From positions 1 to 64,000 of the forward strand of contig NZ_JACVOY010000010.1 in assembly GCF_018882185.1 (NCBI RefSeq): a stretch of 64,000 nt of DNA. The letters are read 5' to 3'. Below are positions 400 to 5,445 of the stretch, one piece after another. This DNA comes from Polynucleobacter sp. AP-Latsch-80-C2. Its GTDB lineage: Bacteria; Pseudomonadota; Gammaproteobacteria; Burkholderiales; Burkholderiaceae. Under the pieces are notes generated by a model. It was given only the letters and a program-made list of their open reading frames with translations. It was not told the DNA's origin and did no database searches. The translations under genes were made by a program, and so were the position numbers. Each line of letters begins with the position of its first letter. Positions within the stretch are counted from its first letter, which is position 1.

Positions 400-539
400 G
401 ACCAAGGTAAGTCTCTACGCTAGACAAGCTCGACCATGATTAGCCGCAATCAAGCCAATATATAAGCCTGAGACAACATTAAATAGTGGAATTATGGCCT
501 GCCCAGCACGATTCGAACGTGCGACCTACGCCTTAGAAG
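400..539 (-). repeat. Partial tRNA-Arg 3' end plus flank (copy A), att-like
   Basis: Bases 495-539 are identical to 5369-5413, the 3' 45 bases of the tRNA-Arg gene including T-arm, acceptor strand and CCA. The resemblance continues outward: 400-494 matches 5275-5368 with scattered differences. The 5' half of the tRNA is absent; the match breaks off right after CCTTAGAAG at 539. Truncated tRNA 3' ends of this kind are the usual trace of integrase-mediated insertion into a tRNA gene. No integrase is visible in the window, so the insertion history is inferred. Confidence 0.7.
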
Positions 540-670
540 CTTTAAAAATGAGCAAAAACAATAGCAGAAACAATGACATAAGCCTTACAAGATCAGGTGT
601 TCGATACGCACCGAGATCCGTGGAATCATGTGGAACTGACCGTGTGGTGTGTGGCATCCGCAGGTGTGGA

Positions 671-698
671 GTCGGTCGAACCGACACTAAATAGTGTC
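671..698. repeat. Nested inverted repeats
   Basis: GTCGGT and ACCGAC (671-676, 680-685) form one hairpin around CGA. GACACTA and TAGTGTC (683-689, 692-698) form a second hairpin with a two-base loop. The two overlap, so only one can form at a time. A related copy of the left part lies at 288-310. No T-run follows. The function is unknown; it may be the end of a small mobile element. Confidence 0.4.
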
Positions 699-772
699 GC
701 GTTACCTGACGCTCATGAGGCCACTAAGGTCTTAATAAATATCGTTAAGGAGTTTAAACAATCTTTAAGAAA

Positions 773-1306
773 TTAATTCTGGGATCTTTTTTCCAATAAA
801 TATGATGCCAAGTCATTTTTGCCTGCAAGATGCAAAAGAAAGCGATAAGCGATATAGGGCAAGATAATCAGCCAATAGAAACATGTTAGCGCCAAAATAT
901 GGGCAATGTCCCCATCACAAAAATTTCGCATGGATTCAATAAATCCCTCATGTTTAAAAAAGCCCTCTGCTCCAGCAGCAGAGTAACGCAGCAGAAGAGC
1001 AACGATAGATGCGAGGGTTGTACGAACTAAAACTGCTAAATAAATAGTGAATTTCACCTTAGGGTTGAATATCACTCCAACAGGAACAATCATTTCTACG
1101 GTGAGCATGATTTTTGACATCACCAAGGCCTGAATCACCGCAAACCCATAGGACTCAATTCCTTTTTCTGGCATATGAACGGCAGCTTGATTATAAAAAG
1201 TAATCGCAATAAACCAGAGTGAGAGGTAGATAGCTACTATTGGCAGCTCCTTTAACATTTCCTTCATGTGCCCTAAAAAGGTAAATTTCATATCAGGTCC
1301 GTTCAA
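773..1306 (-). CDS. Hypothetical inner-membrane protein
   Basis: The product is 177 residues and I do not recognise a family. Four hydrophobic stretches are visible at about 21-38, 57-80, 85-107 and 136-159, with a charged loop around 113-133 (GFFKHEGFIESMRNFCDGD) and a basic C-terminus, so it is probably a four-pass inner-membrane protein. Met1 and Met6 are both possible starts; Met6 (1291) begins more naturally with KFTF. It is divergent from the outer-membrane protein gene at 1420 and lies in the segment bounded by tRNA-Arg remnants, which suggests accessory DNA. No function is proposed. Confidence 0.55.
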   Translation of the reverse strand: MNGPDMKFTFLGHMKEMLKELPIVAIYLSLWFIAITFYNQAAVHMPEKGIESYGFAVIQALVMSKIMLTVEMIVPVGVIFNPKVKFTIYLAVLVRTTLASIVALLLRYSAAGAEGFFKHEGFIESMRNFCDGDIAHILALTCFYWLIILPYIAYRFLLHLAGKNDLASYLLEKRSQN

Positions 1307-1419
1307 AATAGGGAATTGCAGAGCTAAATCTACTGCAAACGATTTTCTAAATATTACCTTATTATTAAAGTCATCCTAATTCTTGAAGCCTGCGAAGCCA
1401 TACCTTAAACATCATACAG

Positions 1420-2256
1420 ATGCATCAATTCAAAGCACTACTGACTATCCTGATATTGTGTAACTTCAAACTTGTGCTCGCTCAAGATACAAATTCATTC
1501 TTTGAAGCACTCACTCCAGGAGAGGAAAGACTTATTTCTAGTGAGCGGCAATTACAAGCTCAAGATAATGTTGCCTCCGTTCCAATTTATTTCAACTTTG
1601 ATCAAAAGGTAGGTTTGGGACATCAAGGCTCAACTCAATACACCCAAATAGAGCCCTGGCTTCCTTATCGCATTAATTCAGACTACAGTTATGTAGTACA
1701 TCCTCAGATCACTTATCAGTCGTTCAACAATTTCGATGGGTACTCTAGCTCAGGTTTTAAACCAGTCATCATAGAAAGTTTTTTTACCGAATCCAACGAG
1801 TCTCGACTAAGAAACTCATTTGGTATTGGCCCAATGGTGCAAATCGGCACCAATATGCCCGCCATGTATGGAAGTTCACAAAATGCCGTGGGATACAGCA
1901 TGGGCGCCATTCATCGAAGCGAGGATTGGATTGTGGGTGCTTATGCATACCAATCGTTTGGCCTTGGAGCAATGCCACTCAATGGCCCTAGTGCCAATAA
2001 TGTTGGATTTCAACCTTTTATCACCTACATCACCAAAAGATATGGGAACATTACCCTTGATTGTGAATCGATCACGAATATGGATACCGGCGCCCGTGCC
2101 TATCCGATTAATTTAATGGGTAGCAAACTCATTGAAGTGGGTGATCTGCCCCTACTATTTACAATTGGTGCTCGGTACTACTCGGTCAATACCAACCTAG
2201 GTGGCGCGCAAGGTTGGGGTGGGCGGATCGGGCTTACCTATGCTTTTTCACATTAA
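1420..2256 (+). CDS. Putative outer-membrane transporter-like protein (MetA-pathway type)
   Basis: The product is 278 residues with a clear signal peptide (hydrophobic 6-20, likely cut after LVLA at 21). The mature part is rich in alternating aromatic and polar residues with glycines (for example YSYVVHPQITYQSF and IGLTYAF), as in outer-membrane beta-barrels. It resembles the loosely defined 'MetA-pathway of phenol degradation/neuromedin U-like transporter' proteins of proteobacteria. A substrate cannot be inferred. The amidohydrolase gene starts 19 bases downstream on the same strand, so the two are probably co-transcribed. Confidence 0.6.
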   Translation: MHQFKALLTILILCNFKLVLAQDTNSFFEALTPGEERLISSERQLQAQDNVASVPIYFNFDQKVGLGHQGSTQYTQIEPWLPYRINSDYSYVVHPQITYQSFNNFDGYSSSGFKPVIIESFFTESNESRLRNSFGIGPMVQIGTNMPAMYGSSQNAVGYSMGAIHRSEDWIVGAYAYQSFGLGAMPLNGPSANNVGFQPFITYITKRYGNITLDCESITNMDTGARAYPINLMGSKLIEVGDLPLLFTIGARYYSVNTNLGGAQGWGGRIGLTYAFSH

Positions 2257-4201: not shown

Positions 4202-4318
4202 ATGCCAAGAATGCAAAAAATCTATACACAACTCAATGAATCTGAAATCATTTGTGCAAGAGATCAAGGCAACTTGATAAAAGAGTACGTCCTCTCTGAG
4301 ATGAAACGACTTTCATAA
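4202..4318 (+). CDS. Possible small protein, 38 residues
   Basis: This is an ATG-to-TAA frame of 38 residues beginning MPRMQKIYTQ and ending MKRLS. It is hydrophilic and charged with no membrane segment. Only a weak purine stretch (GGAAAG) lies about 10-15 bases upstream. It sits in the accessory segment just before the convergent fatty-acid hydroxylase gene and could be the remnant of a longer gene. I recognise no family. Confidence 0.2.
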   Translation: MPRMQKIYTQLNESEIICARDQGNLIKEYVLSEMKRLS

Positions 4319-4325
4319 AATATAT

Positions 4326-5153
4326 TTAGGTGGGCGGCGAAAATATTAACTTCACTTTATTTTTTATCCCCGGAGTATTAATCAATTTAATCAGTAATTG
4401 ACGCCACACTCTAAAAACAACTTCGAAGGGATTGGCAGAATGATTAGGATGGGTTAATCCATAACTAATCTCGACGCCCTGCTCTTCTTTAGCATAGGTT
4501 CCAAATAAACGATCAAATACGATCAAAATCCCACCATAGTTTTTATCTAGGTACTCAGGATTACTGGCGTGATGTACCCGATGAGCTGATGGTGTATTCA
4601 AAATACCCTCCAGAAATCCCAGTCTGCCAATGAGCTTGGTGTGCAGCCAAAACTGATACATCAGGTTGATCGACAGCATGGTAAAGACCAGAATGGGGGA
4701 AAAGCCTAGCAGTACCAGGGGTAAAAAGAAGACCCAGCTAAAAGACAGGAAAGGCATCCATCCCAAACGATAAGCGGCTGATAAGGTCATTTCATTGGGA
4801 GAGTGATGCGTGCTATGGGTAGCCCACATCAAAAAGACTTCATGGGAGGCGCGGTGGTACCAGTAATAGCAAAACTCTAAGCCAATAAAGAGTGCCAGAT
4901 AAACCCACCATGCATTGGGCATTGTATAAATTCGGTATTGCCATACAAAACTGGCCATAACCCCTTGGATTAGTAAACGGTTCACAATGCCGGTCAACTG
5001 GTGACCTAGACCCACCCCTAAAGAGGTTGCACTCTCTCTCCAAGGATAAGATTGAGTGAATTTCTTTTTGTAGCAATAAGACTCCACCAGAATTGCTAGC
5101 GCAACCAGCGGTAAGAAAAACATTAGTTGATAGTTTGAGAAGTACTGTTCCAT
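4326..5153 (-). CDS. Sterol desaturase / fatty-acid hydroxylase family protein
   Basis: The product is a 275-residue integral membrane di-iron enzyme. The histidine clusters of the superfamily are all present: HRASH (100-104), HSTHH (113-117), His171 and HRVHH (191-195), followed by NYGGILIVFDRLFGTY (205-220), which is typical of the family. Hydrophobic segments lie at about 10-27, 82-98 and 133-170. Members hydroxylate or desaturate lipids, carotenoids or alkanes, and the substrate cannot be told from sequence. It lies alone between two tRNA-Arg remnants, which suggests horizontal acquisition. Confidence 0.85.
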   Translation of the reverse strand: MEQYFSNYQLMFFLPLVALAILVESYCYKKKFTQSYPWRESATSLGVGLGHQLTGIVNRLLIQGVMASFVWQYRIYTMPNAWWVYLALFIGLEFCYYWYHRASHEVFLMWATHSTHHSPNEMTLSAAYRLGWMPFLSFSWVFFLPLVLLGFSPILVFTMLSINLMYQFWLHTKLIGRLGFLEGILNTPSAHRVHHASNPEYLDKNYGGILIVFDRLFGTYAKEEQGVEISYGLTHPNHSANPFEVVFRVWRQLLIKLINTPGIKNKVKLIFSPPT

Positions 5154-5274
5154 TCCGATATTAAAGGATCCGGTAGATAAGGACGCCTAGATTCTAATAG
5201 ACAATCTGTTGGTTTACCCGACAAAATTACTGTTGACCCAGTTGCTCACAGTTCACCAGATTCCACCGCGCAGG

Positions 5275-5368
5275 ACCAAGGTAAGTCTCTACGCCGGCCA
5301 AGCTCATCCATGATTAGACACAATCGAGCCAATAGATAAGCCTGAAACTTCATTAAATTAGGAGGATT
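5275..5368 (-). repeat. 3' flank of tRNA-Arg, repeated at 400-494
   Basis: This is the stretch directly downstream of the intact tRNA-Arg gene (which is on the minus strand). It matches 400-494 over most of its length, starting with ACCAAGGTAAGTCTCTACGC in both. Because the repeat extends beyond the tRNA itself, the two ends look like related element ends and not only a duplicated core site. Confidence 0.6.
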
Positions 5369-5445
5369 TGGCCTGCCCAGCACGATTCGAACGTGCGACC
5401 TACGCCTTAGAAGGGCGTTGCTCTATCCAGCTGAGCTATGGGCAG
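5369..5445 (-). tRNA. tRNA-Arg (anticodon UCU)
   Basis: The minus strand folds as a full cloverleaf of 77 bases. The acceptor CTGCCCA pairs with TGGGCAG, the D-arm is GCTC/GAGC, the anticodon stem ACGCC/GGCGT encloses CTTCTAA (anticodon TCT), and the T-arm GCACG/CGTGC encloses TTCGAAT. Discriminator G and an encoded CCA follow. It is the intact partner of the truncated copies at 495-539 and 4025-4057. Confidence 0.93.

Follow-up and report, generated by a model that had tools for sequence, protein, structure and literature searches.

The stretch analyzed here, 64,000 nucleotides of Polynucleobacter sp. AP-Latsch-80-C2 (the window, whose position 1 is base 1 of contig C2; coordinates without a contig or locus name are window positions), begins with a segment in which a tRNA-Arg(UCU) gene is accompanied by displaced pieces of itself. 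We consider it likely that positions 1-5445 are the tRNA-side end of a tandem array of autonomous elements and cargo-only cassettes at this tRNA, the cassettes having been moved by the recombinases of related elements. This reading is carried by the tRNA repeats, a recurrent boundary in the anticodon loop, the reuse of blocks across species, empty-looking sites in relatives, recombinases present both in sibling elements and elsewhere in this genome, and a long recombinase whose phylogeny tracks the tRNA at which it is found; from these data we infer the acting enzyme, its action in trans, transfer between cells and the order of contigs. Collectively, they suggest that species exchange such packages by means of one common pair of DNA-joining enzymes. 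The features concerned are listed below.

1 to ~126, plus strand: IS30-like insertion sequence (IS) end, truncated where contig C2 begins, with C-terminal transposase codons and an inverted end
180-494: P'-side outer arm of the neighbouring element; contains the palindrome-like GTCGGGTCAAACCGAC at 288-303
495-539, minus strand: displaced tRNA-Arg 3' half (tRNA bases 33-77), left boundary of cassette C
540-4024: cassette C, three genes, without recombinase
540-710: outer arm (P side) of cassette C, with a palindrome at 671-685, 132 bases from the core
773-1306, minus strand: 177-amino-acid protein of no family, cargo
1420-2256, plus strand: 278-amino-acid protein with a signal-peptide-like start, of no family, cargo
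2276-3913, plus strand: amidohydrolase (Amidohydro_3, PF07969, 8.6e-63), cargo
3926-3940: degenerate palindrome GTCG-N7-CGAC, 85 bases left of the next core
4025-4065, minus strand: chimeric core, 4025-4032 as in the P. sphagniphilus array and 4033 onward as in the Latsch14-2 array
4066-5368: cassette D, one gene, without recombinase
4326-5153, minus strand: fatty-acid-hydroxylase-family protein (PF04116, 2.9e-29), cargo
5208-5368: P'-side outer arm of cassette D, adjoining the tRNA 3' end; contains a palindrome-like site at 5208-5222
5369-5445, minus strand: tRNA-Arg(UCU), intact, insertion target
5492-5568, minus strand: tRNA-Pro(UGG), conserved upstream neighbour of tRNA-Arg

The intact tRNA-Arg(UCU) gene is the single intact copy in the genome, and the piece at 495-539 matches its 3' end (5369-5413) at 45 of 45 bases, exactly as the original prediction had it. 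The similar flank of about 95 bases described there is also present and measures 103 bases (392-494 against 5266-5368, 81/103 identical, ungapped); a gapped alignment of repeat and flank together yields a 148-nt match at 87% identity (E 2.4e-45). The third copy, announced as a 33-base piece at 4025-4057, does exist with one mismatch (32/33 identical to 5369-5401, and 38/41 when extended to position 4065), and turned out to be a chimeric core rather than a plain scar. A chance origin of the repeats is excluded: when 1-5368 was shuffled 200 times at the mononucleotide level, the best exact match to the 45-mer was 11 bases long. The intact tRNA and its displaced fragments share one orientation, as in tandem tRNA-targeted islands, and an Rfam scan of 1-9000 returned nothing above threshold besides the two tRNAs.

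Comparison with relatives supported the proposal of repeated insertion at one tRNA. Genome labels used below include G011 (P. sphagniphilus MWH-Weng1-1), G007 (sp. AP-Kaivos-20-H2), G019 (sp. JS-Safj-400b-B2), G132 (sp. UK-Gri1-W3), G013 (P. yangtzensis) and G176 (sp. Latsch14-2). Extra tRNA-Arg fragments occur in at least 19 of 37 genus genomes, the source genome included (G009 and G034 are uncertain, with contig ends). We compared the region downstream of the tRNA, mostly 20 kb, in 28 relatives, that is, in 29 genomes with our own, and found 34 fragment copies in 14 of them, plus two near-complete tRNA copies. The tRNA directly faces core genes in 9 of the 28 relatives, as an empty site would: c3 itself in three, c3 behind a small open reading frame (ORF) in one, and c1 or c3 preceded by an ABC-transporter-like set in five. 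Six further relatives without fragments have other genes beside the tRNA. Whether a site is empty or filled, 50-79 bases separate it from c3.

The same blocks recur beside other neighbours. The three genes of 495-4032 lie between two fragments in P. sphagniphilus as well, followed on the right by a recombinase-bearing element there and by cassette D in the window. Identity to this species is 93.7% over 495-4070; by block it is 98-99.6% in the first 750 bases and 86-99.6% elsewhere (last partial block excepted), while left of the core at 495 it is ~72%, and 65% in a nearby TonB-receptor gene. Bases 3914-4024 are 100% identical to P. sphagniphilus, and 4033-5413 match Latsch14-2 at 1364 of 1381 bases (98.8%), with different DNA on the left side; the core at 4025 is chimeric because its left side thus follows one array and 4033 onward the other. 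UK-Gri1-W3 has nine genes in common with contig C9 of our genome (88-99%) and four with contig C59 (93-100%), in a different order. Far from being conserved in all relatives, the cargo of 540-5368 is sporadic: copies of the amidohydrolase at 89% identity or more exist in 6 of 186 genus genomes (57 at E 1e-100), in some of the six away from a recognizable core, and at E 1e-40 or better the hydroxylase is present in 18 of 186. Cargo-only units of other content are shared too and have intact cores, namely HEPN-MNT toxin-antitoxin pairs (c56-c57 in G018, G019 and G132; c65-c66 in G007 and G019) and c74-c76 (G012 and G031).

Cassettes consisting of HEPN-MNT type pairs alone, common to several species, were noted at L039 2598-3319, L045 8083-8726 and L215 (G132). 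Homologues of cassette C genes also lie elsewhere in the chromosome with a decayed or unrecognizable core (L209, L208, L207), perhaps as sources or relics.

ORF and profile scans revealed no recombinase in 540-5368, and the units here do not each carry an integrase of their own, by which the Islander survey defines tandems (PMC4383910). The earlier statement that no integrase remains thus holds for 1-5445 and fails for the genome. Two more 45-base tRNA-Arg copies lie on other contigs (C59 117137-117181 and C9 15857-15901); next to the C9 fragment come the genes of two tyrosine recombinases, of a DUF6641 protein and of a small partner protein. On C59 the fragment is preceded by core gene c3, which places the far edge of the array on that contig. 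C59 and C9 would accordingly belong to the array of the window, C9 adjoining it. A junction of C59, C9 and C2 through IS ends is suggestive only, since none of these ends is unique: the IS30-like ones are present at 7 and 5 places, the IS3-like ones at 2 and 2. The end at the window start, which occurs at 7 places in the genome, at least 4 of them contig starts, corresponds to the IS30 remnant that had been placed just outside the cassettes; its family was assigned by inspection. The element of recombinase type on C59 contains a DUF5615-DUF433 pair. A second pair of the two recombinases, diverged from the first, lies on C14 (L080), and its long member clusters with an enzyme found at a tRNA-Met locus.

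The short recombinase of the sibling elements (188 amino acids) consists of nothing but a Phage_integrase domain (1.1e-23, and 6.7e-22 in the C9 copy). Its residues R41, K72, H138, R141, H164 and Y173, which we take to be catalytic, are invariant in nine sequences. The long recombinase (~405 amino acids) matches the PHROG 1 integrase (8e-26). Their further partners are the DUF6641 protein and a small beta-rich protein without family, for whose predicted model (predicted local distance difference test, pLDDT, 82) none of the 519 PDB matches listed at E 10 or better reached E 0.001. PADLOC assigned no defence role to the module proteins, and gave a weak PDC-M05B match for one cassette HEPN protein. 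Relatives of the short enzyme were detected in 25 phage records (best ~34%) and of the long one in 3 viral contigs (at most 43%), phage genes of the arrays not having been searched systematically, and in 7 plasmid records, all below 60%. Integrons likewise hold arrays of small cassettes without a recombinase of their own, several of them toxin-antitoxin pairs, but the sites of the array studied here are tRNA halves. Membership in the integrons was rejected, as the short recombinase scores 32.1 bits against the integron integrase TIGR02249, far below the cut-off of 265.

As for the cargo, the proposed transport/amidohydrolase pair retained its second member; for the product of 1420-2256, as for that of 773-1306, Pfam, NCBIfam, PHROGs and PADLOC gave no match, transport included, and the predicted model of the former (pLDDT 30) was discarded. 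The lipid hydroxylase was recovered as the PF04116 protein of cassette D.

Matches between fragments and the tRNA stop at base 33 or 34 in 22 of the 34 copies; 10 others stop 2-6 bases sooner, and the remaining 2 well short of that point. To the right of the core, an arm of 148-201 bases recurs after 12 of 34 fragments, that of the window among them. A survey of 186 genus genomes, with 4 candidates scored per genome, matched the core in 174, the tRNA itself counting as a core match; in at least 38 the match extends into the arm, to query base 122 or beyond. With up to 3 mismatches allowed, the palindrome GTCGGTTAAACCGAC was counted 18 times in the 35 kb that lie within 250 bases of cores, with 9 copies at exactly 132 bases from the core and 6 beside the long recombinase gene; elsewhere it is found 15 times in 723 kb, which is the chance level (14.5 in 760 kb upon shuffling). 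In a wider set, the Arg loci have 21 palindromes in 213 kb at up to 2 mismatches. A plasmid origin of the arm was considered and rejected, because a plasmid collection gave no arm match. In the G007 array (11391-11416, L046/L045), a 19-base repeat of the P' arm of one unit is fused to its own copy in the P arm of the next, and the tRNA core between them is gone.

The recombinases are not confined to tRNA-Arg. One scan of named genomes uncovered 79 short-recombinase loci, mostly in Polynucleobacter and also in Limnohabitans, Rhodoferax, Janthinobacterium and others; among the 49 with room on both sides, DUF6641 is present in 34, the small protein in 26 and the long recombinase in 30. Nearby fragments are 3' halves from base 32-33 or 5' halves up to base 38-39 of tRNA-Arg, Phe, Met, Leu and Asn; a tRNA-Lys fragment spans bases 30-76, and a few others are shorter. 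As the two kinds of halves overlap at 32-39, both meet in the anticodon loop. The long recombinase gene lies 30-340 bases from the tRNA or fragment in 10 of the 21 labelled non-Arg loci that have one, and a position close to the tRNA or fragment is usual for an integrase gene. Trees were then built from the 32 loci with both recombinase genes and a tRNA label. The long-recombinase tree accounts for six tRNA types with 6 label changes, against a minimum of 5 and a shuffled mean of 18.7. Single clades at 100/100 are formed by Arg, by Lys and by Asn; Phe takes 2 changes and Met 4. On the same loci, the short-recombinase tree needs 10, and Arg as a single clade is rejected (approximately unbiased, AU, test, p 3.8e-90). 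Long branches are present in these trees. The long enzyme most likely chooses the tRNA, with the short one as a general partner shared among targets.

Insertion would thus proceed by crossover in the anticodon loop, leaving the tRNA 3' half (bases 33-77) as a boundary, with the inserted DNA restoring the gene. An autonomous element would consist of the short and long tyrosine recombinases, the DUF6641 protein and, usually, the small beta-rich protein. Cassettes C and D would have kept the site and outer arms, D in part, around cargo alone, and may be moved in trans by the recombinases of related elements or via recombination between cores, which would also reshuffle the array, as at 4025. The toxin-antitoxin pairs among the cargo-only units fit maintenance of such arrays.

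Several points weigh against this interpretation. Mobility is read here from sequence, and no excision, circle or transfer has been observed. All three partner genes stand in the standard order at 21 of the 49 loci, 22 of 34 fragments lack the shared arm, and those ending 2-6 bases early may belong to other integrases; G018 and G031 carry a different integrase beside a full-length tRNA copy. The long recombinase scores 22.2 bits against Phage_integrase, under the Pfam cut-off of 27.1, and has Y354 and T380 where a catalytic histidine is usual. The tRNA label of each locus in the trees is the only type seen within 10 kb, not checked per boundary, and near-copies inflate the clustering. Cassette D lacks the shared P arm and its left core is degenerate, so that it has the boundaries of a cis-mobilizable element only in part. 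Its joint at 4025-4033 sits at the tRNA 3' end of the core, outside the anticodon loop, and would therefore have been made by homologous recombination.

Such recombination could have done more than this, a possibility we take seriously while leaning against it: ancient integrases would have laid down the fragments and arms, DNA uptake and RecA recombination between cores or arms would have swapped the blocks, and the cassettes would no longer be recombinase substrates. The switch at 4032-4033 within the chimeric core agrees with that scenario, as do the fused arm repeats of G007 and the uneven, mosaic-like identity of cassette C, but the rise from ~72% to 98% identity with P. sphagniphilus falls at core 495 itself, and the fixed 132-base arm geometry is better explained by selection on recombinase sites. 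We regard it as rather improbable that each cassette is the decayed remainder of a once complete element that lost its recombinases. The degenerate core and absent P arm of cassette D, together with a decayed core left of a cassette-C homologue on contig C15 of G019, would suit such decay, whereas the same cargo-only units recur with intact cores in several species (c56-c57, c65-c66, c74-c76). Chromosomal duplication of the tRNA gene or an assembly artefact deserves hardly any credence: although the window starts at a contig end with an IS copy, comparable arrays in closed single-contig genus genomes (e.g., G012, G016, G018, G026, G031 and G032) already refute it.

Movement of cassettes by the recombinases of related elements, the preferred reading, is of a kind already known from tandem tRNA/ssrA islands and cis-mobilizable elements (CIMEs). 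The ssrA islands of Dehalococcoides stand in tandem, the 3' end of a single RNA gene being repeated at the boundary of each; 16 contain an integration module, the 15 that lack one were proposed to be cis-mobilizable, and the cargo varies among strains (PMC3146451). They use a serine recombinase of the Ccr type (DsiB) with crossover in the ssrA T loop, whereas in Polynucleobacter there are two tyrosine recombinases and the tRNA anticodon loop (PMC3146451). CIMEs, like the cassettes here, keep attachment sites and have no recombinase or transfer genes (PMC3146451), and cassette C combines the core and arm common to recombinase-bearing units with the lack of a recombinase. CIMEs derive from conjugative elements (PMC3146451), and no conjugation gene was recognized in the proteins scanned here. 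Additive flexible islands of Alteromonas and Methylophilaceae likewise have one tRNA as cassette target (PMC4119200, PMC10872708), the latter island being recognized by repeats of the last 20 bases of tRNA-Lys (PMC10872708); as far as the available parts of these descriptions go, they name neither a two-recombinase module nor a shared outer arm (PMC4119200, PMC10872708). Tycheposons, likened by description only, are also tRNA-linked, cargo-bearing and equipped with a tyrosine recombinase in aquatic bacteria (PMC10872708), and a tRNA site with a tyrosine recombinase is what we find. The Islander survey counts 125 tandems with at least two members and 4 with at least three (PMC4383910). Within openly licensed literature, we found no description of the two-recombinase family or system and no paper on DUF6641; an earlier description of the system elsewhere is possible.

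A bolder generalization, which we put forward tentatively, is that freshwater betaproteobacteria possess an integron-like cassette system on tRNA genes, in which the long enzyme would read the anticodon loop (Arg, Phe, Met, Lys, Asn, Leu), the short one would be interchangeable, and recombinase-free cassettes, down to a single toxin-antitoxin pair, would be mobilized between species. Polynucleobacter is abundant in lakes, and its species reportedly differ largely by islands, to judge from the title of a 2017 work by Hoetzinger. Because unit boundaries are resolved to the single base, several species share the same units and a recombinase can be named per tRNA, cassette traffic at tRNA genes becomes testable. 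The system also offers recombinases with different natural tRNA targets and one common partner.

A few further observations concern the surroundings. The different integrase (Int_N plus Phage_integrase, 338-354 amino acids) lies at L050 13322-14338 and L048 14278-15342 (G018, G031), beside a full or near-full second tRNA-Arg within these arrays. Full-length tRNA duplication by the same enzyme was rejected for the window, as both of these cases have another integrase. Fragments of tRNA-Arg distant from the tRNA-Arg locus, possibly secondary sites, were seen at G031:C1:1575711 and 402930. Upstream of the tRNA pair, the window encodes a TonB-dependent receptor (6083-8164) and a PPK2 polyphosphate kinase (8165-9070).

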